From Pseudomonadota bacterium (GTDB taxonomy: Bacteria > Pseudomonadota > Gammaproteobacteria > Steroidobacterales > JBCBZW01), in NCBI GenBank assembly GCA_039815145.1, contig JBCBZW010000001.1, forward strand, positions 1-64,000: 64,000 nucleotides of DNA, given 5' to 3'. Positions 23,773 through 39,053 of this stretch are shown piece after piece. The notes under the pieces were generated by a model. That model worked only from the letters and a program-made list of their open reading frames with translations, was not told where the DNA came from and made no database searches. Positions within the stretch are counted from its first letter, which is position 1, and every line of letters begins with the position of its first letter. The translations under genes and the position numbers were made by a program.

Positions 23773-24741
23773 ATGCCCCACCCCTCGCGCCACGGCCCCG
23801 CAAGCCTCGCCCTCTGTGCGCTCCTCGCCGCAGCGCCCGTGACCGTCCTGGCCCAGTCCGCGCAAGAGTTGGCCGAGCGCGAAGCACTGGCAGCGGAGGG
23901 GCTGTCGGCGGAACAGATCGACGCCTACCTCGCCACTAAGGCACAGATACTCGAATCCCTGGACCGGCGCACGGGCACCATCAACCTGCGTAAGGCCAAC
24001 GCCACCCTGGTGGTGCCGGACAACTTCTACTACCTGGATGCCGACGACGCCCAAACCGTGCTGGTGGACATCTGGGGCAACCCGCCGGGGGAGAAGGGCC
24101 TCGGCATGTTGTTCCCGGCCGAGTACTCGCCCTTCGACGGTGACTCCTGGGGCGTCACCATCGACTGGCAGGAGGACGGCTACGTCTCCGACGAGGACGC
24201 CAACGAGATCGACTACGACGAACTCCTGGGCGATCTCCAACAGCAGACGCGCGAAGCCAACCGATACCGCCAGGAAGAGGGGTACCCCACGGTCAACCTC
24301 CTGGGCTGGGCGGAGCGCCCCTACTACGACGGCGGCGCCCACAAGCTCTACTGGGCGAAGGAACTGAGCTTCGAGGGCATGGACCAGAACACCCTCAACT
24401 ACGACATCCGCGTGCTCGGTCGTCGCGGCGTGCTGGTGCTGAGCTTCATCGCCGGCATGGAGCAGAAGGCCGATATCGATGCGAGCCGTGAGACGGTTCT
24501 CGCCATGGCCGAGTTCAACGAGGGCGACCGCTACACCGATTACGTGGAGGGTGACAAGCTCGCCGGCTACGGTATCGGCGCACTGGTGGCAGGCGCTGCC
24601 GGTTTCGCCCTGGCGAAAAAGGGCATCCTGGCGGCGGTACTGATCTTCCTGAAGAAGTTCGGCGCACTGATCGCGGTAGGGGCGATCGCCGCCGCGCGCG
24701 GCTTGTTCGGCGGTAAGAAGAAAGCCGAACAGGACGCTTAA
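23773..24741 (+). CDS. DUF2167 membrane-anchored protein
   Basis: 322 residues. Residues 1-30 form a signal peptide (SLALCALLAAAPVTVLAQ). The central part carries the DUF2167 hallmarks: GTINLRKANATLVVPDNFYY, VDIWGNPP, LGMLFP, WGVTIDWQEDGYVSDEDA and LLGWAERPYYD, then RRGVLVLSF. Near the C terminus there are two hydrophobic segments (GYGIGALVAGAAGFALA and AVLIFLKKFGALIAVGAI) before a lysine-rich tail. It therefore probably sits in the inner membrane with its main domain in the periplasm. The family is widespread, with no biochemical role established that I know of. Confidence 0.87.
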   Translation: MPHPSRHGPASLALCALLAAAPVTVLAQSAQELAEREALAAEGLSAEQIDAYLATKAQILESLDRRTGTINLRKANATLVVPDNFYYLDADDAQTVLVDIWGNPPGEKGLGMLFPAEYSPFDGDSWGVTIDWQEDGYVSDEDANEIDYDELLGDLQQQTREANRYRQEEGYPTVNLLGWAERPYYDGGAHKLYWAKELSFEGMDQNTLNYDIRVLGRRGVLVLSFIAGMEQKADIDASRETVLAMAEFNEGDRYTDYVEGDKLAGYGIGALVAGAAGFALAKKGILAAVLIFLKKFGALIAVGAIAAARGLFGGKKKAEQDA

Positions 24742-25516: not shown

Positions 25517-25990
25517 ATCCAAACCCTCCTTGGGATCGACTCTGGGGCCTTGGCGCCCGATGGGGACGATGATATCAGCCTCCCCCGCCGCTCGCGGGCA
25601 CCGCGCAATCCCCGCCTCACCATGATTAGGTCAAGCGCTCTGTGCGCTGGTGCACCGTTTCGGGTCTCTCCCATCTCACGAACGCCCCATCCGTTGAAGG
25701 CGATCACACCCGCATCGAGCGTCTGAGGCAATACTTCGAGGCGATCCGATGTGAGCGTATCGCCACAGCGCATCGAGAACGGCACACCTGTCGCGAGGCA
25801 GGGTCGCAAAGCCACCGGTCCACACGCCAAGCGTGGGGACAGCGGAGCTGCCGAAAGCGCCGAGCCTAATCCAAAGGCCCGAGCTCTCCGGGTTATCCGG
25901 TTCTCCCGCACTGTCGCACGCACCCGAGCGAGACGTTCGCATCGCACGGATCCAAGCGAACGACAAAACCTCATAGGGGAGAACTCAAGC
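25517..25990. other. Long divergent leader region containing a riboswitch-like element
   Basis: About 470 bases without a gene. The left side must contain the promoter of the repeat lipoprotein (leftward). The right side is the untranslated leader of the acidic lipoprotein, with a cyclic-di-GMP-I aptamer-like element at about 25777-25855 and a small CCGG-GTTAT-CCGG hairpin at about 25888-25900. The start ATG at 25991 has AGGGGAG at about 25975-25981. Confidence 0.7.
25777..25855 (+). promoter_or_regulatory. Cyclic-di-GMP-I (GEMM) riboswitch aptamer
   Basis: Conserved pieces occur in the right order. GGC (25781-25783) pairs with GCC (25811-25813). Inside lies the stem CCTGTC / GGCAGG (25787-25792 and 25797-25802) closed by the GNRA tetraloop GCGA. 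Then comes the hallmark GGTCGCAAAGCCACCGGTC (25802-25820), differing by one base in the first part from the family's GGACGCAAAGCC. A second stem CACGC / GCGTG (about 25823-25835) follows, and finally GACAGCGGAGCTGCCGA (25838-25854), the counterpart of GACAGCCGGGTTGCCGA. It lies about 135 bases before the acidic lipoprotein start on the same strand. Whether ligand raises or lowers expression cannot be told; no T-rich terminator was found between aptamer and gene, so control of translation is more likely. Confidence 0.85.
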
Positions 25991-28690
25991 ATGACGCGAC
26001 AACGTTTACTCGCACTGCTCACCTGCGCGCTGCTCGCGCTCGGGTTGAGCGCCTGCGGCGGTGGCTCGAGCGGCGGTGGCTCGAGCGGCGGTGGCGGTAC
26101 CGGCGGTGGTGACACCGGCGGCGACACCGGCGGCGGCGGCGGTGATACAGGCGGCGGCGGTGATACAGGCGGCGGTGGTGACACCGGCGGCGGCGACACG
26201 GGCGGTGATAGCGGCGGCGACACCGGCGGCGGTGACGATATGAGCGACGATGGCGTCGCGCAGACCATCACCGTGAGCGGCGTGGTCACCGATGCGCCGA
26301 TCGCCAACGCCATCGTGACACTCACGGTAGACGGCCAGCAATTCGAGGCACCGGTCCCGACGGACGCCAACGGCGCCTACACGGTGGAAATCTCGAGCAC
26401 CGATCCGGACGCCCTCGTTTTGTGTGAGGCCGTCGACCCTAACGGTGCTGCGCGCTTCACCGCCCTACTCGATGACTTCGAAGGCTTCCAGGAAGCGGCG
26501 AACGAGGAAGGCGTGGTCGAGGCCGTCGACATCACCAACGTGACCACAGCCCAGTACGTGCTCGCGACCCAGCTCACCGACGACGGCACGATCGATGACC
26601 TCGACGAGCTCGAAACCGCCGCCGAGATGGTGGACGCGGACGAACTCCTCGAACTCTCCGCCGCCATCAAGGTGGTGGTCGAGGCCATCGAAGGCGTGAC
26701 CCTTCCCGAGGGCATCACCGACACCCAGGAACTCGCGGAAGCGATCGCCGAGGGCACCACGACCTTCGTGGAAGACCTCGAGGTGACGAACCCCGGCACC
26801 CTCGACGAAGCCGTCGACCTGGTGCTGACGGACGGCAACGCGACCATCGAGTGGGATGAGGACACCGTTCCCGGCGTGTACATGCCGAGCGACGGCAACT
26901 CCGTCTTCGTGTTCTTCGCCGGCGGCCAGGGCCTGCGCCAGGAGTTCGGCGACTTTCACGACGACGGCGAATTCGATGGCGATGACTTCGATCGCGACCC
27001 CAGCGATGCCCCGGACGTCTGCTTCCCGCCCCCCGATGGCGCCACCCCGCCTGAGGGCGACGACGACGCCTTTGCCGATGGTAACGGCGATGCGCTCGAC
27101 GACGGCACCGGCGACGCCTTCGATGATGGCTCCGACGTCGGCGACGACGGCGTTGCCAGCGACGAAGACGGGGACGGCACCGGCGATGCCTTCGACGACG
27201 GCACCGACGTGGGTGATGACGGCGTCGCCAACGATGACGGTGGCGTGGCCCCCGGCGAGGTCCCGACGGACGAAGGCGACGCTTTCACCCCGCCCGGCGG
27301 TGAGGAGTTCTGCGACTTCGACCAGGACTTCGGCGATGACTACGACTACTACGACGACTACTACAGCGACGCCGAGGACTTCACCTGGTCCGTCAACGAG
27401 GCCGGTCAGCTGCGCATCGAGTTCACGGCTGCCGACGGCACCGTCGAGTTCCAGCTGGTTACGCTGATCGCCGTGTCCGGTGATGTAGTCAAGGTGTCCG
27501 TCGAGGACAGCAGCGACCAGCGAGAGGAGACCGACGGCGAGGCCGAGGAACGCGGTCCTCAGACCGACTCCGCCGTCTTCATGCGCTTTGCCGAGATGGG
27601 CTTCGACACCGCCACGGTGCCGGGCACCTACACCATCTTCGAGGTGGAGTTCGAAGATGAGGAAGCCGACGAAGAGGACGGCTTCGAAGAAGATCACGAG
27701 GAAGCCCTCGTGTTCCTCGGCGACGGCAACGGCTACGAGCTGGACCTCGAGACGGGCTTCCAGGACGGCGGCTTCACGTGGCGCGTGGACGGTAACGGCG
27801 TGCTGAGCCTGGCCGAGGCCGACGGTGAGACGGCGTCCGTCTACGTGCTCGATCGCACCAGCACGGGCCTGCTAACGGTCCTCGTGGTCGCCACCGAGAT
27901 CGAGGATGACGGCACCAGCTACCGCGAGCTCTTCGTGGAGACCCTGCAGTACTCGGAAGAGATCGCCGAAGGTCCGCAGCCCGACGCCGCCAACACGGCA
28001 GCGCTCGCGGGCAAGACCTACGCGCAGATCGACGCCGAGGAGATTGGCCTCTTTACCTTCGGTGCCGACGGCACCTTTACCGAGATCTTCGAGCGTCGTG
28101 AATTCGACGGCTACGAGTTCGGTGAGGACGAGGGCGAGTGGACCGTCGACGACCAGGGCGTCATCCGCGTCGATTTCGATGACGATGACGACGACGTCGG
28201 TGGCGTGCAGGTGGAAGCTGGCCTCGGTGAGGATCAGATGACCCTGCTGGTCGATCCCGACGATCAGTTCTCCATCACCGTCGATCGCGTGACGAGCTTC
28301 GACGAGGAGAGCCTCCTCGGCCTGTGGATGGAGCAGACCCTCGCCGGTGAAGAAACCGCGATGGTCATGTTCGAGGGCGGTGGCTTCGGCGTCTACGACC
28401 TCCAGGGTGAGAACCCGACGGAGTTCGAGTGGGCCGTCGACGATGAAGGCATTCTGCACGTGTTCCCCGTCGCCGGACCTGAGGATCCGGAGGGCGTGTT
28501 CACGGTGACCTTCTACAACCTGGCCACCAGCACCGAGAACATCCTACGCGTGGTGCAGGTGTTCCGCCTGGACGGTGAGCTCGACCCGCAGGTCGGCGGC
28601 GGGCCGGACCAGGAGGACGAGGCCTTCACCGATGAGGATGCGCAGGCACCGAACGTGCTGGTGGGCGTAACCCTCTCTCGCATGCCGTAA
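25991..28690 (+). CDS. Large acidic, glycine/aspartate-rich lipoprotein behind a cyclic-di-GMP riboswitch
   Basis: 899 residues from the ATG at 25991. The signal ends at lipobox LSAC (Cys22). Residues about 23-85 are a flexible Gly/Asp/Thr tract of GGGDT-type units. Then comes a carboxypeptidase-regulatory-like beta domain (VSGVVTDAPIANAIVTLTV) and a helical part (about 165-290). A second low-complexity acidic tract follows (about 355-440, units like GDAFDDG-DVGDDGVA), rich enough in Asp to bind calcium. The C-terminal half repeats a module with W-x-V-x(3)-G (FTWSVNEAGQLRI, FTWRVDGNGVLSL, GEWTVDDQGVIRV, FEWAVDDEGILHV). It is probably surface-exposed or periplasmic, and the long tether fits an adhesin or matrix role, but that is inference. 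It ends in a clear terminator. Confidence 0.85.
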   Translation: MTRQRLLALLTCALLALGLSACGGGSSGGGSSGGGGTGGGDTGGDTGGGGGDTGGGGDTGGGGDTGGGDTGGDSGGDTGGGDDMSDDGVAQTITVSGVVTDAPIANAIVTLTVDGQQFEAPVPTDANGAYTVEISSTDPDALVLCEAVDPNGAARFTALLDDFEGFQEAANEEGVVEAVDITNVTTAQYVLATQLTDDGTIDDLDELETAAEMVDADELLELSAAIKVVVEAIEGVTLPEGITDTQELAEAIAEGTTTFVEDLEVTNPGTLDEAVDLVLTDGNATIEWDEDTVPGVYMPSDGNSVFVFFAGGQGLRQEFGDFHDDGEFDGDDFDRDPSDAPDVCFPPPDGATPPEGDDDAFADGNGDALDDGTGDAFDDGSDVGDDGVASDEDGDGTGDAFDDGTDVGDDGVANDDGGVAPGEVPTDEGDAFTPPGGEEFCDFDQDFGDDYDYYDDYYSDAEDFTWSVNEAGQLRIEFTAADGTVEFQLVTLIAVSGDVVKVSVEDSSDQREETDGEAEERGPQTDSAVFMRFAEMGFDTATVPGTYTIFEVEFEDEEADEEDGFEEDHEEALVFLGDGNGYELDLETGFQDGGFTWRVDGNGVLSLAEADGETASVYVLDRTSTGLLTVLVVATEIEDDGTSYRELFVETLQYSEEIAEGPQPDAANTAALAGKTYAQIDAEEIGLFTFGADGTFTEIFERREFDGYEFGEDEGEWTVDDQGVIRVDFDDDDDDVGGVQVEAGLGEDQMTLLVDPDDQFSITVDRVTSFDEESLLGLWMEQTLAGEETAMVMFEGGGFGVYDLQGENPTEFEWAVDDEGILHVFPVAGPEDPEGVFTVTFYNLATSTENILRVVQVFRLDGELDPQVGGGPDQEDEAFTDEDAQAPNVLVGVTLSRMP

Positions 28691-28755: not shown

Positions 28756-30243
28756 CTAGGGAATAGCGGCCTGCACCGCCGCCACGCGGTCGACGACGTA
28801 GGTCACGCTGGCATCCATCGCCTCCAGCAAGGGTCCCGGGTAGAGGCCGATACCGAGCACGGCCACCACCAAGGGCGCCAACGTCAGCACCTCGCGAAGA
28901 TCCAGGTCCGTCAGCTGACGAGCCGCCTCCGTACGCGCCTGCCCAAGTGCCACCCGCTGCAGCATCCAGAGCATGTAGGCGGCGCCCAGCACGATGCCGC
29001 CCATGGCCAGCACGACGAAGACGAAGTTCTCGTAGGACACGCCGACCAGGATCAGGAACTCGCCGATGAAGTTCGACGTGGCGGGCAACCCGAAGGACGC
29101 CACGGCAAAGAGGCTCAGTATCGCGACGAACCTGGGCATACGCTTGTACAAGCCACCGTAGTCGGCGATCTCACGGCTGTGCGTGCGGTTGTATAGCTGG
29201 CCGACGATCAGGAACATCGCGCCGGTGGTCAGGCCGTGGGTCATCATCTGCAGGATTGCACCTTCGATGCCTTCGTTGCTGAAGGAGAAGATGCCCAAGG
29301 TCACAAAGCCCATGTGCGAGACCGACGAGTAGGCGACCAGGCGCTTCAGGTCCGTCTGCGCCAGGGCCATGTACCCGCCGTAGAGAATTCCGGCCACCGA
29401 CAACCACAGCATGTACGGCGCGAACTGCAGCGCCACCTCGGGGAAGATCGGCAGGCAGAAGCGGATCAGGCCATAGCCACCCATCTTGAGCAGCACGCCG
29501 GCCAGCAACACACTGCCGGCCGTTGGCGCTTCCGAATGCGCATCCGGCAGCCACGTGTGGAAGGGCAGCATCGGCAGCTTGATGGCGAAGCCCAGGAACA
29601 GGGCCAGGAATATCCAGAACTGGGAGTTGGCCGAGTAGTCATGCTCGGCGAGCATCAGGATGTCGAAGGTGCCCGCCTGCAGGGATAGGCTGAGGATGCC
29701 CACCAGTAGCAGCAAGCTGCCGAGCAGACTGTAGATCACGTACTTCATGCCGGCCGCGATACGTTCCGGTCCGCCCCACAGCACGATCATGAAGTACATG
29801 GGAATCATCGTGACTTCCCACAGCATGAAAAACAGGAAGGCATCCAGCGCCGTGAAGACCACCAACATGGCGCCTTCCACCAGCAGGATGAGCATCATGA
29901 ACGGCTTCAGCCGGCTGGTGATCGAATCCCAGGAACCGAGCACGCAGAGCGGCGGCAGAATGCTGGTGAGCAGCACCAGCAACAGGCTGATGCCGTCGAC
30001 GCCGACGGCGTACTGAATGCCGAAGGTGGGCATCCACTCGACCCGTTCGACGAACTGCATGCCCTGGTCCGTGAGATCGAAGCCGATCCACAGCACCACG
30101 GCCAGCGCCAGGTTCACCAGGGTGATCGCGAGCGTCGTCGACAGTACCGCGACCCGGCCGCGAACGAATGCCAAGACCGCCATGCCGAGAAACGGCACCG
30201 CGATCATTACGCTCAACAGGTGGTTTGAAAACAATTCGTTCAC
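28756..30243 (-). CDS. NuoM-like proton/cation-translocating subunit of the DabA-Mrp operon
   Basis: 495 residues with about 14 hydrophobic segments and the NuoM/MrpD signatures: MLWEVTMIPMYFMIVLWGG (with the conserved membrane Glu), LPMLPFHTWLPDAHSEAPTAGSVLLAGVLLKMGGYG and LKRLVAYSSVSHMGFV. It ends the ten-gene operon. No complex I genes (nuoA-K) surround it, so it serves the antiporter-like complex encoded upstream, not a respiratory complex I. The direction of ion flow is inference. Confidence 0.87.
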   Translation of the reverse strand: MNELFSNHLLSVMIAVPFLGMAVLAFVRGRVAVLSTTLAITLVNLALAVVLWIGFDLTDQGMQFVERVEWMPTFGIQYAVGVDGISLLLVLLTSILPPLCVLGSWDSITSRLKPFMMLILLVEGAMLVVFTALDAFLFFMLWEVTMIPMYFMIVLWGGPERIAAGMKYVIYSLLGSLLLLVGILSLSLQAGTFDILMLAEHDYSANSQFWIFLALFLGFAIKLPMLPFHTWLPDAHSEAPTAGSVLLAGVLLKMGGYGLIRFCLPIFPEVALQFAPYMLWLSVAGILYGGYMALAQTDLKRLVAYSSVSHMGFVTLGIFSFSNEGIEGAILQMMTHGLTTGAMFLIVGQLYNRTHSREIADYGGLYKRMPRFVAILSLFAVASFGLPATSNFIGEFLILVGVSYENFVFVVLAMGGIVLGAAYMLWMLQRVALGQARTEAARQLTDLDLREVLTLAPLVVAVLGIGLYPGPLLEAMDASVTYVVDRVAAVQAAIP

Positions 30244-30251
30244 GTCGGTCG

Positions 30252-32336
30252 CTACCCCGCGATCCAGTAGAAGAAGGTCAACGCAGCAATCAGAGAAAGC
30301 ACGACGACCAGCAGATTGTGCTGCAGGGTGCGTGGCTCGATGCGCCGTGCCGCCTGGCCCGATGCATCCACCCCCTTACCTAGTCCATCGACCGTTTTCG
30401 AGATACCGGCCGTATCGACGTTGCGCCCGAGCCATCGGGCAAGACTGACGCTGCCGGAACCGACGCGGGTTACCTGTCGGTCGACCGCGATGTCGATAGC
30501 GCCCAAGCGGCGAGCGAGACCGACGCTGCCGGAACCCACGTTGGTCACCTGTCGGTCGACCGCCATGTCGATAGCGCCCAAGCGGCGGGCGACACCAAGG
30601 CTGATGGCGCCCATCGAGAGCACCAGTCGATCGATGATGCCTCGATCGATCTTCGCCCACATCCAGCGAGCGGCACCGAGGGTCGGGCGCACGATGATCA
30701 CCTCGTAGATCTCATCGAAGTAGCCCTTGTTGAGGAAGAACACGTAGAGGCGCTTCTTCCACTCGGCACCACCGGCCACCCCAGCCTTATCGCGCCGTGT
30801 GTAGGCGACGCCCCAGCCGAGCAGCGCAACACCGATCGGCACCAGCACCCATAGGGTCAACCCCGAACTTGGCGATGCTGGCGCACCGCCTACCGCGGGT
30901 GATAGGAACTCGGCGAACCAACGCCAGATCACCAGTAGCAAGGCGATCGCCACGCCGGCCACCACCGCGATGCCGCCAAGCAGTCGCGTGGAGAAGGGAG
31001 TAGGCGTGACCCGCGAGCCCGCGCGGACGCCTGAGACGCCGTGACCGAATACCGTGGTGAAACCCTTGAACAGGTACATGGCCGTGAAGAACACGGTGCA
31101 GCTACCTACCACCCACAGCGCGACAGCGGCCGTGGTAAAGCCCTGGGAGAGCCACAGGTCACGATAGGCACCGGAGAACACCACCAACGGGGGCAGCACG
31201 GAGAGCACCAGGGCCCACAGGAACAGCCCCTGAGAAGGCGCGTGGGACTTCTCTTCCTCGAGTTCGAAGCGACGATGGGTCGAGGCCAGGACGTTGCCGG
31301 TGGACAGGAACAGGAACGCTTTGAAGAAGCCGTGCGCCAAGAGGTGGAAAATCGCGGCCACGAACGCGCCGACCCCGCACAGGAAGGTCATGAAACCGAG
31401 TTGGCTGATGGTGGAGTACGCGAGCGTTCGCTTGACGTCCGTCTGGGTCAACGACACGACCGACGCAAACAACGCGGTCACCGCGCCGACGGTGGCGATC
31501 ACCGCCATGCCGCTCTGCGAGAGCACGATCACCGGACTCAGGCGCGCCAGCAGGAAGGGCCCGGCGTTCACCATGGTCGCCGCGTGGATCAGCGCCGACA
31601 CGGGTGTTGGCGCTTCCATCGCCAGCGGCAGCCACGCATGGGTCGGCACCTGGGCGGACTTGCCCATAGCCCCCATGAACAGGCAAAGGGTGATCAGCGT
31701 GACAGAGAGTGTCGGAATCTCCGTACCCGATCGCGCGAGACTCAGAATCTCCTGGATGTTCAGGGTGCCGAAGGTCACGAAGGTGAGAATGATGCCGATG
31801 AACAGCCCCACGTCCGCCACGGCATTGACCAGGAACACCTTGGTCGCCGCCTTCGCCGCAGCCTCACGCTCGCCGTAGTGCGAGACGAGCAGGTAGGAAC
31901 AAAGGCCCATGACCTCCCAGAACATGAACGTGAGCAGGAGGTTGCTGCTCATCACCAGCACTGTCATGGCACCGGTGAACAACGCCGTTAGGGCGAAGAA
32001 ACGACTGTGGCGGGCATCGCTGATCATGTATCGCGACGCGTAGATCTGGACGATGGAACTGACGCCGGTGACCAGCAGCAACAACAACACGGTGAGCTGA
32101 TCGACGAAAAAGCCCACGTCGACCTTCAGGCTCCCCACATCGAGCAGCTGGTAAAGCGTGATCTCCATCGCCCCGTTCGCGCGAACGTCGAGGAATAGAG
32201 AGACGGACAGCGCGAACGATACGGCGATGGCAGGAATCACCAACCGGTGACCCACCCCTTCGAGCTGACGCCCGAACAGGGCGAGCACCAGCGCCGCGAG
32301 CAGGGGCAAGAACGGTATCAAGACGTAGATCGACAT
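30252..32336 (-). CDS. dabB: NuoL/DabB-like antiporter subunit with a duplicated C-terminal segment
   Basis: 694 residues. The N-terminal 500 residues have the NuoL/MrpA-type core: LLLTFMFWEVMGLCSYLLVSH, GKSAQVPTHAWLPLAMEAPTPVSALIHAATMV and KRTLAYSTISQLGFM. The C-terminal part, after about 560, has a charged stretch with two 25-residue direct repeats (ARRLGAIDMAVDRQVTNVGS and ARRLGAIDIAVDRQVTRVGS), then a final hydrophobic anchor (HNLLVVVLSLIAALTFFYW). In DAB-type inorganic carbon pumps, DabB is a NuoL-like partner of DabA. This gene is the best candidate in the operon for that role, though the NuoM- and MrpD-like subunits are also possible. The gene symbol is by analogy. Confidence 0.8.
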   Translation of the reverse strand: MSIYVLIPFLPLLAALVLALFGRQLEGVGHRLVIPAIAVSFALSVSLFLDVRANGAMEITLYQLLDVGSLKVDVGFFVDQLTVLLLLLVTGVSSIVQIYASRYMISDARHSRFFALTALFTGAMTVLVMSSNLLLTFMFWEVMGLCSYLLVSHYGEREAAAKAATKVFLVNAVADVGLFIGIILTFVTFGTLNIQEILSLARSGTEIPTLSVTLITLCLFMGAMGKSAQVPTHAWLPLAMEAPTPVSALIHAATMVNAGPFLLARLSPVIVLSQSGMAVIATVGAVTALFASVVSLTQTDVKRTLAYSTISQLGFMTFLCGVGAFVAAIFHLLAHGFFKAFLFLSTGNVLASTHRRFELEEEKSHAPSQGLFLWALVLSVLPPLVVFSGAYRDLWLSQGFTTAAVALWVVGSCTVFFTAMYLFKGFTTVFGHGVSGVRAGSRVTPTPFSTRLLGGIAVVAGVAIALLLVIWRWFAEFLSPAVGGAPASPSSGLTLWVLVPIGVALLGWGVAYTRRDKAGVAGGAEWKKRLYVFFLNKGYFDEIYEVIIVRPTLGAARWMWAKIDRGIIDRLVLSMGAISLGVARRLGAIDMAVDRQVTNVGSGSVGLARRLGAIDIAVDRQVTRVGSGSVSLARWLGRNVDTAGISKTVDGLGKGVDASGQAARRIEPRTLQHNLLVVVLSLIAALTFFYWIAG
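30448..30597 (-). repeat. Two-copy 75-bp tandem repeat inside the NuoL-like gene
   Basis: Units 30448-30522 and 30523-30597 are 75 bases each and differ at only a few positions, mostly synonymous or conservative. The repeat is in frame and gives two copies of a 25-residue segment with the pattern ARRLGAID-x-AVDRQVT-x-VGSGSV. A weaker third start (ARWLG) follows. Confidence 0.9.
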
Positions 32337-32341
32337 GGCCG

Positions 32342-33805
32342 TCAGACGCCTCCACCGGTGACGAAGTCAACCAGTATCTTGAAGATGGGATCGCTGAACA
32401 CCCCGAGCGCGATCATGGCGACCGACGCCACGCCAAGGCTGGGCCATAGGAGCCCCGAGGCGGCTTGCGGTTGGACACCGGCGGGCGTCGAGCGGTGGAA
32501 CCACGCAGCGAAGACCCTCACGAAGTAGCCCAGGGTCAGCAGCGTCGATGCCACCACGGCGAAGGCCGCCAGGTAGTGGTCCGCCTCGAGGGCGCCCAAC
32601 ACGATGTTCCACTTGCCGAAGAAACCACCCATGGGGGGCAGGCCGACCATTCCTACCGCGACGATGATCAGAGACGCCGTCAACCAGGGCGACGGTCTGC
32701 CCGATTCGCGCAGGTCGTCCAGCGTGCGCACGCCGTGGCTACGCGCCAGCACCCCGGCGATCATGAAAAGGGCTCCCTGCATGACCGCGTCGTTGACCAG
32801 GTAGAAGATCCCACCCGCGAAGCCCGTCGCGTTGCCGAGACTAACACCCAAGAGGATCAACCCCACGTGGCCGATGCCGCCGTAGGCGAACATGCGCTTG
32901 AGATCGGTCTGAATGAGCGCGAGCGCGCCGCCGACGATCGCGGCGATGATGCCGATCTCCTCCAGCAGCACCAGCACCGGGACCGCGCTCACCTCCACGC
33001 CGGGCAGGATCAGGGAGTACTCGATTCGCACCCACGCCACCAGCGCTACCTTGGTCACCGTGGAGGCCAACAGCGGACTCACGGTTTCCGGTGCGTTCTG
33101 GTAGGCATCGGGCAGCCAGCCGTGCAGCGGAATCAGGGCCATCTTGATCGACAGCCCGAGGAAGATGTAGATCAGGCCACCGGCCACAGCCGTCGAGTTG
33201 ATCAGCTCGGGAAGCTGGGTGGCAAGGTCCGCCATGTTCAGGGTGCCCGTCGCCACGTAGAGGTGGCCGACGCCCAGCAGGTAAAGGGTCGCCCCGAGTG
33301 AGCCCAGGAGCAGGTAGCGAAATGCGTAGACAGCGCCCTTGCCGCCGCCCGCGCCGACCAGCGCGTAGGCCGCGATGGCCGAGACCTCCAGGAACACGAA
33401 CAGGTTGAACAGGTCCGCCGCGAATACGATCCCGACCAGCCCCGTGATCAGCAACAGCACGAGCGTGTAGTGGGTCATGCTCCGGTCGAAGCGGGAGGAG
33501 AAGGCCATGCGCCCGTAGAGGAGCGTCAGGAAGGCCACCGCGCTGACGGTCAGCACCACCAAGGCGGCGAGCGAATCGTTCAACCAGGCGATGCCGATCG
33601 GTGCCCCCCAGCCGCCGAGCGCGTACTCGATCGGCCCCTCGCTCAACACCACCCGTAGGTTGATCACGGCCAGCACCACCATGAGCGCGGCCGCACCGAT
33701 CGCGATTGGCTGACACCAGCCGCGCCGATTCGTGGTCACGAGCGGCATCGCCACGCCCGCGAAGAACGGCACGAGGAACAGCAGTATGGGCAGATGCTCG
33801 CTCAC
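32342..33805 (-). CDS. mrpD: MrpD/NuoN-like antiporter subunit
   Basis: 487 residues with about 14 hydrophobic segments. Visible are LFNLFVFLEVSAIAAYALV (conserved membrane Glu), LSIKMALIPLHGWLPDAYQNAPETVSPLLASTVTKVA and TDLKRMFAYGGIGHVGLI. These place it in the MrpD / NuoN antiporter-like family. Its start overlaps the end of the MrpC-like gene by 4 bases. It sits in the mrpB-mrpC-mrpD order typical of Mrp sodium/proton antiporters. Confidence 0.88.
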   Translation of the reverse strand: MSEHLPILLFLVPFFAGVAMPLVTTNRRGWCQPIAIGAAALMVVLAVINLRVVLSEGPIEYALGGWGAPIGIAWLNDSLAALVVLTVSAVAFLTLLYGRMAFSSRFDRSMTHYTLVLLLITGLVGIVFAADLFNLFVFLEVSAIAAYALVGAGGGKGAVYAFRYLLLGSLGATLYLLGVGHLYVATGTLNMADLATQLPELINSTAVAGGLIYIFLGLSIKMALIPLHGWLPDAYQNAPETVSPLLASTVTKVALVAWVRIEYSLILPGVEVSAVPVLVLLEEIGIIAAIVGGALALIQTDLKRMFAYGGIGHVGLILLGVSLGNATGFAGGIFYLVNDAVMQGALFMIAGVLARSHGVRTLDDLRESGRPSPWLTASLIIVAVGMVGLPPMGGFFGKWNIVLGALEADHYLAAFAVVASTLLTLGYFVRVFAAWFHRSTPAGVQPQAASGLLWPSLGVASVAMIALGVFSDPIFKILVDFVTGGGV

Positions 33806-34176
33806 TCGGCCTCCTGCAGCAGCTCGTTCTCATCGAGCGTGCGGTACTTGCGGTAGGCGAGGGAGACCAACGCCAGGGACACACCGAGGGTGGCCACCTG
33901 CACCACGATGGCCGTCACCGTGAGCACGTGGGGCAGCGGGTTGGCGTACTCGATGGCATTCACCACCGAATCGGGCCTTACGATCGGCACCGTGGCGCCC
34001 TGCTTTGCACTGAAGGCCACCAGGAAGAAAATCACGCTGGTCTGCAGGATGTACAGCCCGATCAGCTTCTTCACCAGGTTCGGGTGCACGACCATGATGT
34101 AGAGGCCCCAGAGGAACAGAATCACGAAGACAATGAAGTTCGGCCGCTGCAACCAGGCCTGAAGGAGCTCAAACAT
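33802..34176 (-). CDS. mrpC: MrpC/NuoK-like subunit
   Basis: 124 residues with three hydrophobic segments: NFIVFVILFLWGLYIMVV, KLIGLYILQTSVIFFLVAFS and PLPHVLTVTAIVVQVATLGVSLALVSLAY. The last two carry the NuoK/MrpC pattern. The ATG at 34174-34176 was chosen over upstream codons because GAGGT lies at the right distance and length then fits the family. It overlaps the MrpB-like gene by 8 bases and the MrpD-like gene by 4. Confidence 0.87.
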   Translation of the reverse strand: MFELLQAWLQRPNFIVFVILFLWGLYIMVVHPNLVKKLIGLYILQTSVIFFLVAFSAKQGATVPIVRPDSVVNAIEYANPLPHVLTVTAIVVQVATLGVSLALVSLAYRKYRTLDENELLQEAE

Positions 34177-34636
34177 GGGAAACCTCATCCGCGCCGTCGC
34201 CCTCATCTTCATCATCTGAGGCCAAGCTGATGGAAATCGACACGCCGGTCACGGCGACATCCACGGCCACACCAATCTGCGTCAACAAGATCCCGAGGTA
34301 CCTGCGGGAAGGTTCGTCCAGACCCGGCACCTCGAGGTTTGCGTAGTTCAGGAACTGACCGCCGCCGATCAGGCACAAGCCGCCCACGCCTGCAAAGATG
34401 AGTAGGCCGATGCCGTCGCCATGCAGCACAGCCCGCGCCAGGCGACTGTCATCGGCGTCCACGCCGAAGATCAGAATGGCGAGAATCATGCTTGCCGCCA
34501 GCACCACCCCGCCGACGAAGCCACCGCCGGGCCCGTACTGCCCGAACACCAGCACATAGAAGCCGAACAATTGCGCCACGGGGATCACGATCCGGCCCAG
34601 GGTGCGCACGATGACGCTGTCGTGGGGATGGATCAC
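34169..34636 (-). CDS. mrpB: MrpB/MnhB-like subunit
   Basis: 155 residues with four hydrophobic segments. SVIVRTLGRIVIPVAQLFGFYVLVFGQYGPGGGFVGGVVLAASM is the classic MnhB N-terminal pattern, including the GxGPGGGFVGG loop. The C terminus (ASDDEDEGDGADEV) is acidic and probably cytoplasmic. It overlaps its upstream neighbour by 4 bases. Confidence 0.9.
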   Translation of the reverse strand: MIHPHDSVIVRTLGRIVIPVAQLFGFYVLVFGQYGPGGGFVGGVVLAASMILAILIFGVDADDSRLARAVLHGDGIGLLIFAGVGGLCLIGGGQFLNYANLEVPGLDEPSRRYLGILLTQIGVAVDVAVTGVSISISLASDDEDEGDGADEVSHV

Positions 34637-35157
34637 TGACCGCGTCTCCGCAGCAGCAGCGCACAGGCGATACCCGCCGTGAAGATCACGATGGTCTCCA
34701 CCAGCGTATCCAGAGCGCGGTAGTCCATCAGGATCGAGGTGACCACGTTGGGGGTCCGCGTCTGCGCCACGCTGTTCTCGAGGTACTGCGGCGAGACGTG
34801 CGTGCTGGCGGGCGACGTGGGATCTTCGAACACCGGCAGGTCGCCCGCGCCGTAGAGCATCAACAAGGCCAGCAGCGGCAGACCGACGAGCGCTACCTTG
34901 GGCACCGGCAGGCGGCGAATCTGCGTGTCCTTCTCGTCGGTGCGGAACAAGGTCAGCAGGAAGAACACGGTGGCGAGTCCCGCGCCGACCACCGCCTCGA
35001 CGAACGCGACGTCGACGGCGCCGACCAGCGCCCAGACCAACGCCAGGGCAAAACTGTAAGAGCCCAGAATGAAGACGGCCGAGATGAGGTCCTTGACGAG
35101 GATCGCCCCGGCGGCCGTCATCACCAGCAGCAACAGCAGCGGCAACTCGAAAATCAC
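34633..35157 (-). CDS. MbhD/MbhE-like subunit (equivalent of the MrpA C-terminal part)
   Basis: 174 residues with about five hydrophobic segments. MTAAGAILVKDLISAVFILGSYSFALALVWALVGAVDVAFVEAVVGAG is the MbhD (DUF4040) pattern: a short hydrophobic domain corresponding to the C-terminal extension of MrpA. The last 40 residues (TSILMDYRALDTLVETIVIFTAGIACALLLR) match MbhE. So the functions that are fused to MrpA in many bacteria are a separate polypeptide here, and the NuoL-like subunit supplies the remaining part of MrpA. Confidence 0.85.
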   Translation of the reverse strand: MIFELPLLLLLVMTAAGAILVKDLISAVFILGSYSFALALVWALVGAVDVAFVEAVVGAGLATVFFLLTLFRTDEKDTQIRRLPVPKVALVGLPLLALLMLYGAGDLPVFEDPTSPASTHVSPQYLENSVAQTRTPNVVTSILMDYRALDTLVETIVIFTAGIACALLLRRRGQ

Positions 35158-35456
35158 TTGTCGTCGCTCCTCTCGCCTGGGCGAAGTCCCGCCCGGTAGG
35201 CTGCGCGAATGGCCGCGTGGGTGAACACGGGATTGAGCAGGTAGATGAGACCGAGCACTACGAGGATCTTCAGCAGGTTAGTACTGAACCCCTCGTAGAC
35301 CGCCAGCCCGCCCAACACGAACAGGGCCCCTAAGGCATCGGTCAGGGACAGCGCATGGGCGCGGCTGAACACATCGGGCAGGCGCAGCATGCCGATGGAG
35401 CCGACCACCAGAAAAAACAGCCCGATCACGATCAGGACAATGGCCAGCGCCGTCAT
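35154..35456 (-). CDS. mrpG: MrpG-like subunit
   Basis: 100 residues, typical for MrpG/MnhG. It has three hydrophobic segments and the signature GSIGMLRLPDVFSRAHALSLTDALGALFVLGGL. The ATG at 35454-35456 overlaps the end of the MrpF-like gene by 4 bases. It belongs to the small-subunit membrane arm of the Mrp-type complex. Confidence 0.92.
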   Translation of the reverse strand: MTALAIVLIVIGLFFLVVGSIGMLRLPDVFSRAHALSLTDALGALFVLGGLAVYEGFSTNLLKILVVLGLIYLLNPVFTHAAIRAAYRAGLRPGERSDDK

Positions 35457-35725
35457 TCTTCCTCCTCCCCACGTTCTTCGAGGAACTTGGCAATCGCCAG
35501 CGCGCCGACGAGATTCAGGATCGCGTAGCCAGTGGAGATGTCCACGAACATATCGACCCGCCCGAAGGCCGCACCGATCACCACGATCAGGATGATCGCC
35601 TTGGTGGAGATACCGTTGAGTCCGAGCACCCGATCGAAGGCGGTGGGGCCACGCACCACTCGGTACAGGTAAACGAGCATCATCGCCGTCAGCGCCACGA
35701 GCACGAAGAACAGAAAACCGCTCAC
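35453..35725 (-). CDS. mrpF: MrpF-like subunit
   Basis: 90 residues from a GTG at 35723-35725 that overlaps the MrpE-like stop (GTGA). Three hydrophobic segments. RVVRGPTAFDRVLGLNGISTKAIILIVVIG and DISTGYAILNLVGALAIAKFLE are the MrpF pattern, including the conserved Asp in the first loop. Confidence 0.92.
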   Translation of the reverse strand: MSGFLFFVLVALTAMMLVYLYRVVRGPTAFDRVLGLNGISTKAIILIVVIGAAFGRVDMFVDISTGYAILNLVGALAIAKFLEERGEEEE

Positions 35726-36189
35726 TGCTTCTGCTCCGACCCGGAAAACACTCGCTGCACCTTGTTCTCGAGGGTGCCGTCCAGGAGATCCTGGGCCGAC
35801 TCGGCATCGATCGCGTGCACCAGCACTTCGCCCGGGGCGATCTCCACCGTGATGGTCCCGGGAGTCAGGGTGATGGAATTGCCGAACACGGCCAGTTCGC
35901 CATCGCTCTTCAAGCCGATCTCGCGACGAATCAGGCGCGGAGCGATCGGCAGCTTGGGATCGAGAATCAAGCGGGTCACGTGCAGTCCGCTCTTGAAAAT
36001 CCTGCCGAAGAGCCACGGTTGGTAGGCGAATATGGCCGACCAGGACAGCCGCCGCATGGACGGTAGCGCAGGGTTAAGCCAGGCCACCAACACCGATACG
36101 ATCGCGCCCACCACCATGTGCGCGGGTGACAAGCTCACCGAGAAGCTGAGCCATAGGGCAAACAGGATGACGGCGGTGACAATCCTCAT
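35722..36189 (-). CDS. mrpE: MrpE-like subunit
   Basis: 155 residues. An N-terminal membrane pair (VTAVILFALWLSFSVSLSPAHMVVGAIVSVLVAW) is followed by a soluble domain with LPIAPRLIRREIGLKSDGELAVFGNSITLTPGTITVEI, the MnhE hallmark. It starts in an ATGA overlap with the end of dabA, which physically links the Mrp genes to the carbon-uptake gene. Confidence 0.92.
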   Translation of the reverse strand: MRIVTAVILFALWLSFSVSLSPAHMVVGAIVSVLVAWLNPALPSMRRLSWSAIFAYQPWLFGRIFKSGLHVTRLILDPKLPIAPRLIRREIGLKSDGELAVFGNSITLTPGTITVEIAPGEVLVHAIDAESAQDLLDGTLENKVQRVFSGSEQKQ

Positions 36190-39053
36190 AGCTCGACCTG
36201 CTCCCAGATGGCGTCCTTGTTATAGCGCTGGAACGAGAACGTCTCGCGATCGAGCACTACCAGGTTCAGCCACTCGTTGTGGAAGAACTGCTGCAGGATC
36301 CCGTGCCGGGAGATGATGCCGGCGACGATCGAGGGATCGGCCTCGATGATGATCAACAGCCGCATCGGCTCATGGAAATGCGCCTCACCGTCGTTGACCG
36401 TCTGCAGGGGCAGCCCTGTCGCCAGGTCGCTCTGGGAGCCGTACATCACGCCGATGCCGCCGACCACGTTGTGGATCACCTTGCTGCCGCTGCCGTACTT
36501 CCACGGATCCGTGGCCGAGGTGTAGTACTGCATGTTGATCCACTCGCCCACCACCAACGGCGCTGTCATGATCTTCTCGAGGATCGCGCCCTCGGGATCC
36601 GAGGCAGCGTCGTAGGAATGCAGGAAGCAGCGGCCACCGATGTCGATGCCCTTGGTCACCGCCCGACGCGCGATGATGAACGCCGCGTTACCCGACAGCC
36701 CCCATTCCGGTCGCGTGGTGGCCCAGTCGAAGGTGCGCGACTCCACGTGCGCGTGCGCCTTCTCCGGGCTCATGCCCTTGGGTGTCCCCGGGATGCGGGC
36801 GCAGCGTTCGACGGCCAGGTTCTGGCCCGCTGAGATGAACGCCTGACGCAGCTTCTCGAAATCCTCCCGGTGACTCTCCGGCAGGTCGACGAGATCGTAG
36901 AAGTACACCTTGTCGGCCGTCGTATCGTGCTTGGCCGGCAGGAACCACATGTCGTCCGGGATCTCCAGCCCACGATTCTTGAGCTCTGCACGCACCTCGG
37001 GGTTGTTGCCCATGGCCGCGAAGGTCCGGGCGTTGGGGTCGCCATGGCGCCCGCCGCACGCACCGCAATCGAGCGCAGCGGAGTACGGGTTGTTGTCCGT
37101 CGTGCTGCCGTGACCGCACAGGACGAAGAAGCGGCCGAAGTTGCTCGTCAGGCCAATCGTACGCAGGCCGCCTTCGACGAAGTTCGCCTGCTGCTCGATG
37201 GAGAAGCCCCGGGTCAGCTCGATCGGCAGGCCGCTGACCTGCGCCGCTTCGCTGGTCGGCTCCACGGCGATCTCGGTGACCACGGGCCGCACAAACCAGC
37301 GCTTGGCGGCTTGCACCAGGGCGTTGTAGGGACGCCGCACCAGGGTCTTGCCGAACAGCGCCGCGCTGAAGAACAAGCCGACCACATCGACCAGGAGGAA
37401 CGAGGCGATGGGGTTGTGCTTCAGGTCGTGGAACAGGTGCCCCATGAGCGTCTTCCAGCGCGACCCGCTGGCGTAACTCGACAGTGCCTCCTCCTGCCCG
37501 TCGCGCGGCGTTTCGAGCAACGCATTGGCCGGGGACAGGAGCACCGGGCACAGGGGGAAGGATTCCTCCGTGTCGAAGTTGCGGTGATCCATCGGAATGC
37601 CGAAGAACCCGGCGTAGCCGAAGGTCTCGACGGGGGCTACGGCTTCGAAGTTGCGTCGAAACGGCTCAGACCGCACGTCGATGCAGAACGCCGCTTGCGC
37701 CAGAGGGCGCCCATCCACCGGAGGCGCCGAGGCGCGATGGCCAGCGATATCCCCAAGGAGTTGATGGCGGAAAGAGTCCTCGTAGGCTTCGAGCCAAACC
37801 GGATTCTGGTCCTCAGCAGGAAACTCGTCCAACCAGGCGAGCATGCGCTTAGCATCCTCGATAGGCATCGCGCGCAGCTCGTCGGCGGGCAGCTCCAGCA
37901 GCTGAGCCAGGTGGAACAGTCGCCAGGCATCCCGGCACACGGCTTGCTTGCCGGCGCTGACGTACGCCACCGTGCCGCTGCCTTGGGCGGCGAGCCGCTC
38001 AGCGATCGCTGCCAGCGAACCGGCTACCGACCACCGGCGACGTGCCTCGCTGGCCACAAACTGTGCTTCGTAGAACATACGAACGGCGAGGTACTGCTCG
38101 ACGTCGATGGGGTTGATCTTCTGGATCGGGTCCTCAGGGTTCAGGCCACGCCAGCGGATCAACCCGGTCCACCCGGGCAGCTGCGCGAGCACGCGCTCGA
38201 GGTAGTCCGGCCAACGCGCCTGAGGGACTTCGAGCAGCTCGAGGCAGCTTCTAATCGCCGCTTCCGGCTCATCCGGCAGGGCCGCCACCTTGTCGACGAA
38301 ACGATCGATGCCGATCAGGCGCGCGCTCGCATCATGCTGCGCAAGTTCACGCCAAGCGGCGTAGAAGCCAGCCCGCCTGGACGGCATGGCCCAAGCCGCC
38401 ATGCCCTCGTCGACAAACGCAGAGACCCACTTGATGACCTGCGCATCGATATTGGCCACGACGGTCGAGCCGGTGCCCTCGTCCAGCCAATCGCTGAGCG
38501 CGCGTCGAAACGGCAACTCGATTCGAGCGCCGTCCGCCGCCGCCTGCGCCGCGTGCTCATCGGATTGGGCCTCGCGTGGATCCTCGAGGTCGAGGACGGC
38601 CAGCGCTGCCTGCCAGATCGCCGCCAGGTCGACCGCCTCGCTGGCGCCCTCGCGGGGGGTGGAAAGCGCACCACGGCTGTTGATCTGCCAGTCGAACAGC
38701 GCCGGTTCCAGCGGATCGATACCGTGCAGCAGGTGCAGCCGATGGACGTGCGCCGCCGAGATCGTGCGCGAGGCCAGCAAGACCGAGCCGCGGTTGGCAG
38801 GCCCGTTCCTCACCAGGGCTCGATCGATACTGAGGGCGCTGATCCGCCCGCTCCGATGTAGGCCCCGGTACTCCTCGACGGGCAGATACCCTTGGGCCCC
38901 GAACAGCTGATTCGCCTGGCGGAAGGCCTCGTCGAAGGGGAGATGCTCCAGACCCTGAAGCGGGTTGTGGGAGACAAAGCCCTTCATGGGCCAGAACTGG
39001 GAGACCGGTTGTACCGCCTCCTCTATCTGTTCGCGCAGCGCACTCGTTGCCAT
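36186..39053 (-). CDS. dabA: DabA-type (DUF2309) inorganic carbon transporter subunit
   Basis: 955 residues, a peripheral protein resembling a beta-carbonic anhydrase in its active site. Residues corresponding to the zinc and catalytic residues of Halothiobacillus DabA (C351, D353, H524, C539) are all present: Cys457 and Asp459 in FCIDVRSEPF, His648 in LCGHGSTTDN and Cys663 in LDCGACGGRHG, with the same 2- and 15-residue spacings. The start ATG at 39051-39053 (MATSALREQIEEAVQPVSQF) has AAGGA upstream; an in-frame ATG 48 codons earlier gives an atypical N terminus. It heads the operon with Mrp-type genes. The known family role is energy-coupled CO2 or bicarbonate uptake with a NuoL-like partner. 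Coupling here to a full Mrp-like complex is inference. Confidence 0.93.
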   Translation of the reverse strand: MATSALREQIEEAVQPVSQFWPMKGFVSHNPLQGLEHLPFDEAFRQANQLFGAQGYLPVEEYRGLHRSGRISALSIDRALVRNGPANRGSVLLASRTISAAHVHRLHLLHGIDPLEPALFDWQINSRGALSTPREGASEAVDLAAIWQAALAVLDLEDPREAQSDEHAAQAAADGARIELPFRRALSDWLDEGTGSTVVANIDAQVIKWVSAFVDEGMAAWAMPSRRAGFYAAWRELAQHDASARLIGIDRFVDKVAALPDEPEAAIRSCLELLEVPQARWPDYLERVLAQLPGWTGLIRWRGLNPEDPIQKINPIDVEQYLAVRMFYEAQFVASEARRRWSVAGSLAAIAERLAAQGSGTVAYVSAGKQAVCRDAWRLFHLAQLLELPADELRAMPIEDAKRMLAWLDEFPAEDQNPVWLEAYEDSFRHQLLGDIAGHRASAPPVDGRPLAQAAFCIDVRSEPFRRNFEAVAPVETFGYAGFFGIPMDHRNFDTEESFPLCPVLLSPANALLETPRDGQEEALSSYASGSRWKTLMGHLFHDLKHNPIASFLLVDVVGLFFSAALFGKTLVRRPYNALVQAAKRWFVRPVVTEIAVEPTSEAAQVSGLPIELTRGFSIEQQANFVEGGLRTIGLTSNFGRFFVLCGHGSTTDNNPYSAALDCGACGGRHGDPNARTFAAMGNNPEVRAELKNRGLEIPDDMWFLPAKHDTTADKVYFYDLVDLPESHREDFEKLRQAFISAGQNLAVERCARIPGTPKGMSPEKAHAHVESRTFDWATTRPEWGLSGNAAFIIARRAVTKGIDIGGRCFLHSYDAASDPEGAILEKIMTAPLVVGEWINMQYYTSATDPWKYGSGSKVIHNVVGGIGVMYGSQSDLATGLPLQTVNDGEAHFHEPMRLLIIIEADPSIVAGIISRHGILQQFFHNEWLNLVVLDRETFSFQRYNKDAIWEQVEL

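Follow-up and report, generated by a model that had tools for sequence, protein, structure and literature searches.

The window, i.e., the whole stretch of 64,000 nucleotides analysed here, carries ten co-oriented and mostly overlapping genes in the order dabA-mrpE-F-G-mbhDE-B-C-D-nuoL-nuoM at 28756-39053 on the minus strand. All ten gene products were assigned by Pfam (DabA, MNHE, MrpF, MrpG, MbhD+MbhE, MnhB, Oxidored_q2 as MrpC, and three Proton_antipo_M proteins), and no redox subunit gene was found among the ten by this assignment. Both Pfam and the junction positions confirmed the extent and start of this dabA and Mrp-type operon as given in the initial annotation, including the ATGA overlap of dabA and mrpE. 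Overlaps of 4 bases occur at six junctions (dabA/mrpE through mbhDE/mrpB, plus mrpC/mrpD), mrpB and mrpC also overlap, and gaps of 5 and 8 bases precede nuoL and nuoM. The dabA gene starts with ATG at 39053 and is preceded by a Shine-Dalgarno-like GAAGGA; promoter and terminator scans gave no more signals than shuffled sequences. The features are as follows, where DAB2 is the DabA2-DabB2 pair of Halothiobacillus neapolitanus (PDB 9rd0, PMC13144422).

39797-39873, minus strand: tRNA-Met, directly upstream of the operon, where relatives have a SulP gene
36186..39053, minus strand: dabA, 955 aa (PF10070, E 4e-263; phmmer match to H. neapolitanus DabA2, 9rd0_A, E 3e-113)
37677..37685, minus strand: codons of DabA Cys457 and Asp459, aligned with DAB2 Cys351 and Asp353
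37671-37673, minus strand: DabA Arg461, aligned with DAB2 Arg355
37341..37493, minus strand: DabA finger helix-loop-helix, residues 521-571 (AlphaFold model; DAB2 structure, PMC13144422)
37386-37388, minus strand: DabA Asp556, in the alignment column of DAB2 Glu444
37065..37112, minus strand: DabA His648 to Cys663, the remaining zinc ligands, aligned with DAB2 His524 and Cys539
35722..36189, minus strand: mrpE (MNHE by Pfam), ATGA overlap with dabA, NSITLTPGT motif retained
35453..35725, minus strand: mrpF (PF04066), conserved Asp-Arg pair aligned with other MrpF
35154..35456, minus strand: mrpG (PF03334)
34633..35157, minus strand: mbhDE-like gene (DUF4040; PF13244 and PF20501), counterpart of the MrpA C-terminal part
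34169..34636, minus strand: mrpB (MnhB, PF04039)
33802..34215, minus strand, start ATG possibly at 34176: mrpC, NuoK-like (PF00420; MrpC-type in NCBIfam)
32342..33805, minus strand: mrpD, antiporter-type (Pfam), TM5 Glu, TM7 Lys and TM12 Lys retained
30252..32336, minus strand: nuoL-like gene, proposed DabB equivalent, TM5 Glu141 retained, Ala390 in place of TM12 Lys
30442..30603, minus strand: tandem repeat with a 75-base (25-aa) unit and 2.2 copies, within the part of the nuoL-like gene that encodes the C-terminal lateral-helix region
28756..30243, minus strand: nuoM-like gene, TM5 Glu and TM12 Glu retained (TIGR01972 over cut-off)

MrpB, C, D, E, F and G, the set of an Mrp (CPA3) antiporter, are all encoded, so the earlier description of a complete Mrp set holds for these subunits. 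It does not hold for a single mrpA, in which a NuoL-like part is fused to an MbhD/E part; here the counterparts of the two halves are separate genes, and the NuoL-like protein is not of MrpA lineage. The mbhDE-like product aligns with MrpA residues 606-763 of 7d3u, and its NF009159 match exceeds the cut-off. The copy number of the 25-aa repeat in the NuoL-like protein differs between relatives. Elsewhere in the window, 25751-28690 (plus strand) is convergent with the operon and encodes a long, acidic protein that is rich in repeats, includes a Gly/Asp-rich stretch and gave a weak CarboxypepD_reg match alone, and 23773-24741 (plus strand) encodes a DUF2167 membrane protein (PF09935, E 8e-88).

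Conservation and genomic neighbourhood

The same ten-gene order was found in 13 further complete loci besides the window, and because the identical order recurs in these loci, the arrangement is far beyond chance. With the window DabA as query, a scan of genome contigs identified 22 loci, including 12 complete same-order sets, 2 sets intact up to the contig end, and 2 that show dabA alone at a contig end; the thirteenth complete copy (L097) came from a census of the class. According to the record titles, with MAG names taken as deposited, the hosts are Gammaproteobacteria (Pseudohongiella, Arenicellaceae, Pseudohaliea rubra) and Rhodospirillaceae, Myxococcota and Acidobacteriota MAGs. Identity to the window proteins is 50-75% for the operon DabAs and 51-77% for the NuoL-like proteins. 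In one relative (L030:9893-12858), dabA is split into several reading frames, and the Mrp and NuoL/M genes of the operon remain open.

Upstream DNA was available for 17 relatives. In each of them, the gene immediately ahead of dabA, in the same orientation, belongs to the SulP family of anion/bicarbonate-type transporters, and both upstream SulP genes tested gave a Sulfate_transp Pfam match. No SulP gene precedes dabA in the window, where the nearest upstream feature is tRNA-Met; a SulP gene of the same genome lies on contig C17 and is closer to the Pseudohaliea operon SulP than to that of the other operon type. By eye and clustering only, small ArsR-like or LysR-like regulators were seen upstream of SulP in different relatives, on the same strand in L017, L018, L024 and L028 and on the opposite strand in L019, L020, L022, L023, L025 and L030.

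In the class census, DabA was found in 83 of the 369 genomes sampled. The great majority of the 60 DabA regions retrieved are DabB-DabA pairs, about 10, some of them incomplete, have the order NuoM-DabA-NuoL-NuoM-NuoM without Mrp genes (among them L108, L124, L125, L129, L130, L131 and L142), and one is of the Mrp type (L097). In a quick DabA tree, the DabAs of the operons group in a single clade whose sister is the multi-antiporter type (87). The NuoM-DabA-NuoL-NuoM-NuoM loci differ from our operon in that the acid of the DabA finger is mostly missing (Asp in 3/11) and the NuoL-like protein is shortened after TM11. One NuoM-like copy in this arrangement lacks both the TM5 Glu and the TM12 charge.

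DabA and the NuoL-like subunit

The five active-site residues of DabA (C, D, R, H, C) aligned with those of DAB2 and are conserved in all 17 operon DabAs, as had been proposed for the catalytic residues from the window alone. Their spacing, first described as original, is so locally, where C-x-D and H-x14-C are the same as in DAB2; between the two pairs, it is 18 residues longer (191 vs 173). In the DAB2 structure, a finger of DabA enters DabB2, and Glu444 of this finger occupies the place of NuoL TM12 Lys399/Asp400 (PMC13144422). The corresponding column holds Asp in 17/17 operon DabAs and Glu in 57/59 canonical DabAs, and it is mixed in the NuoM-DabA-NuoL-NuoM-NuoM type. The AlphaFold model of DabA places helices 521-545 and 548-571 at the expected finger site, with pLDDT <50 at 545-556. 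A fold search with this model, in which the finger is poorly predicted, against a library that may predate 9rd0 returned nothing significant, neither DAB2 nor beta-carbonic anhydrase.

The phylogeny of the antiporter subunits, proposed as a check in the initial annotation, was run. The operon NuoL-like proteins, the DabBs and the NuoL-like proteins of the Mrp-free arrangement group apart from 11 complex I NuoL and 6 MrpA proteins with support of 97/98, and the same grouping was obtained in a smaller set with one NuoL (97/93) and in a quick tree (87). Three rows labelled NuoL in the quick tree (L145-L147) were not clear NuoL and were removed before the 97/98 tree. Within this group, the operon proteins form a separate subclade and do not fall within DabB. 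A copy of complex I NuoL was rejected as the identity of this gene on the tree and the TM12 residue, and descent from the N-terminal half of MrpA was rejected because MrpA forms a separate clade. We propose from these sequence comparisons that the NuoL-like subunit is the DabB equivalent and the likely partner of DabA. The best PDB matches of the protein are complex I NuoL/NdhF (E 3e-81), with DabB2 weaker (E 3e-36), which counts against this explanation; a fold model of the lone subunit had a mean pLDDT of 60, and its top fold matches were all complex I NuoL/ND5.

Residue patterns distinguish the NuoL-like subunit from its relatives. Each of the 14 operon NuoL-like proteins has lost the TM12 charge and carries Ala, Ser or Pro there, in a part of the alignment that has no gaps, whereas Lys is retained at this position in 14/14 NuoL, 6/6 MrpA and 15/15 operon MrpD and Glu in 14/14 operon NuoM-like proteins; such counts are not independent events, since each class is one clade. 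Since they belong to one clade, the NuoL-like proteins of the operons may have lost the TM12 charge only once. The TM12 region of DabB aligns poorly, and thus the absence of the charge from DabB rests mainly on the DAB2 structure. These points would suit a neutral decay of a duplicated NuoL unrelated to DabA, in which one event explains the whole clade and the structural match depends on the alignment and on DAB2. We regard such decay as very improbable, because TM12 alone was lost while the TM5 Glu (14/14) and TM7 Lys (13/13) were retained, and DabB, which falls in the same clade, has the same loss.

The TM5 Glu also bears on whether DabA and the NuoL-like protein could be an ordinary two-subunit DAB, with the Mrp genes and NuoM making a separate antiporter that is merely co-transcribed. 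A canonical DAB requires DabA and DabB alone (PMC13144422), and the NuoL-like protein does group with DabB. However, the interface ion pair includes a TM5 Glu that DabB2 does not have (PMC13144422). This residue is absent from 59/59 single-partner DabBs but present in the 14 operon NuoL-like proteins; it is also present in 8/8 NuoL-like proteins of the Mrp-free arrangement. Two proteins labelled DabB in which it is present (L117 and L132) resemble that arrangement, with the partner gene downstream of dabA, and stand outside the 59. In addition, the operon NuoL-like proteins (649-729 aa) have a NuoL-type C-terminal extension, compared with 455-574 aa for DabBs, and the separation would leave the Mrp set without an MrpA/NuoL-type subunit. 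The seven PF00361 matches in the window's genome are all accounted for (three of complex I, one DabB and three of the operon), and thus there is no separate MrpA in this genome. On this evidence, the two-subunit explanation is unlikely. The residue pattern instead fits a NuoL-like subunit that would give up its TM12 charge to DabA and keep the TM5 Glu for communication with its neighbours.

The proposed complex and related systems

The NuoM-like protein has complex I NuoM as its sister group in the tree, and the operon MrpD groups with NuoN/MrpD types and a haloarchaeal Mrp. Together with the placement of the NuoL-like protein, this suggests a complex combining an Mrp module, a NuoM-type subunit and a terminal subunit of DabB lineage. 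Where checked, the Mrp residues reported as essential (PMC5703873) are conserved (MrpD Glu and Lys, MrpF Asp-Arg), and the sole MrpE of the window's genome is that of the operon. These conserved residues and the lack of another MrpE would allow cation coupling; coupling of the putative complex to sodium or protons is plausible.

From the genes, their order and conservation, the phylogeny and the residue pattern, we infer complex formation, finger insertion, coupling, the ion and the direction as follows. With a probability of roughly 60%, the operon encodes one membrane complex, in which DabA, as a vectorial carbonic anhydrase, would hydrate CO2 while attached to an Mrp/complex-I-like arm at the end formed by the NuoL-like subunit. 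The order along the membrane would be the Mrp small subunits (E, F, G, B, DE, C), MrpD, NuoM-like, NuoL-like and DabA. The DabA finger would enter the NuoL-like subunit, where Asp556 would replace the missing TM12 lysine and complete the ion path, like Glu444 in DAB2. Since the NuoL-like subunit keeps its TM5 Glu, it could exchange electrostatic signals with the NuoM-like subunit and MrpD. CO2 hydration would be tied to, and gated by, the passage of ions via three channels and the Mrp cation module. The most likely function would be to turn CO2 into cytoplasmic HCO3- for carboxylation, with a proton and/or sodium gradient as the driving force. Several findings support the earlier suggestion of DabA acting together with three antiporter-type subunits in one membrane complex: the operon conservation, the DabB grouping, the TM12 loss and the acid in the DabA finger.

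Compared with DAB2, the operon shares the PF10070 DabA with its Zn ligands and Asp-Arg dyad, the acidic finger residue, and a NuoL-family partner of the DabB lineage without the TM12 charge. DAB2, however, has two subunits, a finger Glu and a partner without the TM5 Glu, whereas the operon has ten genes, a finger Asp, the TM5 Glu, an additional MrpD, a NuoM-like subunit and the Mrp small subunits. Because the NuoL-like protein keeps the TM5 Glu (14/14 vs 0/59), we call the putative complex a DAB variant and not a canonical DAB.

A second comparison is NDH-1MS of cyanobacteria (CupA-NdhF3-NdhD3), in which the terminal NdhF3 keeps the interface ion pairs, loses the lateral-channel charges and carries the CO2-hydrating CupA (PMC6981117). 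In NDH-1MS, and as proposed for the operon, the last NuoL-type subunit of an arm with several antiporter-type subunits bears the protein that hydrates CO2, and in both systems this subunit loses a channel charge yet keeps an interface residue. They differ in the fold and site of CupA and in the ferredoxin/quinone redox module of NDH-1MS, in place of which the operon has the Mrp cation module. As the operon has neither CupA/CupS on NdhF3 nor a quinone/ferredoxin module, the likeness is one of working principle only.

Mrp (CPA3) loci with extra NuoL/NuoM-like genes occur in, for example, Natrononativus (L046), Aminobacter (L047) and 'Ca. Nitrospira alkalitolerans' (PMC7784846). They share the order E-F-G-DUF4040-B-C-D followed by two more antiporter-type genes, but no DabA is annotated in them (for 'Ca. 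Nitrospira alkalitolerans', by the text of PMC7784846), and the antiporter subunits of L046 and L047 retain the TM12 Lys. In 'Ca. Nitrospira alkalitolerans', BicA (SulP family) also lies beside Mrp, NuoM and NuoL, and the combination of SulP, Mrp and NuoL/M recalls the BicA-Mrp cooperation proposed for Aphanothece and this organism (PMC7784846). That DUF2309 (DabA) genes lie beside NDH-like genes was, as the initial annotation noted, known before: the COGNAT study of 2017 described DabA with NuoL, NuoM and SulP neighbours and proposed multi-subunit ion-translocating complexes, in which more membrane subunits would mean more ions (PMC5700660). Its clade C YbcC/COG3002 operons, like the NuoM-DabA-NuoL-NuoM-NuoM loci, share with ours DabA upstream of nuoL and the NuoM and SulP genes, but Mrp subunits are absent from the text of that study (PMC5700660). 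Our literature search, which covered papers readable without subscription, found no description of a full Mrp set with DabA, of the TM12/finger swap or of the NDH-1MS parallel.

If the proposed complex is correct, vectorial CO2 hydration would extend from a two-subunit pump to a multi-subunit complex driven by a cation gradient, and complex-I-like arms with a carbonic anhydrase at the NuoL end would have arisen at least two times, with a redox module in NDH-1MS and with an Mrp module here. DAB coupling could then be put as residue-level predictions, namely that the partner subunit cedes its TM12 charge to DabA and retains the TM5 Glu only if it has neighbours. Since the Mrp cation module adjoins DabA in these operons, they are also relevant to the debate on whether DAB/MpsAB couples to protons or to sodium.

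Likely use in the hosts

RuBisCO was found in none of the 13 operon host genomes examined, and beta-carbonic anhydrase was absent from 11 of the 13, several of which are incomplete MAGs; the window's genome has one alpha-carbonic anhydrase match, on contig C149. CO2 concentration for carbon fixation was rejected as the main role on the lack of RuBisCO, and the inorganic carbon uptake on a larger scale first suggested for this operon is doubtful for the same reason. As these genomes lack RuBisCO and mostly beta-carbonic anhydrase, an anaplerotic or biosynthetic supply of bicarbonate is likelier than CO2 fixation, and ion/pH (Na+) homeostasis is also favoured over fixation.

The complex might instead be mainly a Na+/H+ antiporter for pH/salt homeostasis, with DabA as a CO2/bicarbonate- or pH-responsive regulator or a proton source. 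The single MrpE of the genome, the conserved Mrp residues and the hosts without RuBisCO are in line with this, and a second DAB could supply bicarbonate. However, the conservation of every DabA catalytic residue in 17/17 operons counts against this, as does the SulP gene directly upstream in relatives, which suggests a role in handling anions or bicarbonate, although the SulP family transports various anions; we consider a mainly antiporter function quite improbable. The proposed complex could also run in the opposite sense, a reading to which we give little credence: in a heterotroph under alkaline conditions, respiratory CO2 would be hydrated in the cytoplasm, bicarbonate would leave via the neighbouring SulP, and the protons delivered to the three antiporter subunits would help to power Na+ extrusion by Mrp, which would make a CO2-driven sodium pump.

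An ordinary DabB-DabA pair is encoded in the window's genome (contig C9:51102-54616; L009:9974-13974) and also in genome G082, in addition to the operon, and these pairs count against the need for a larger machine. The pair in the window's genome is closest to other canonical DABs, and the best PDB match of its DabB is DabB2.
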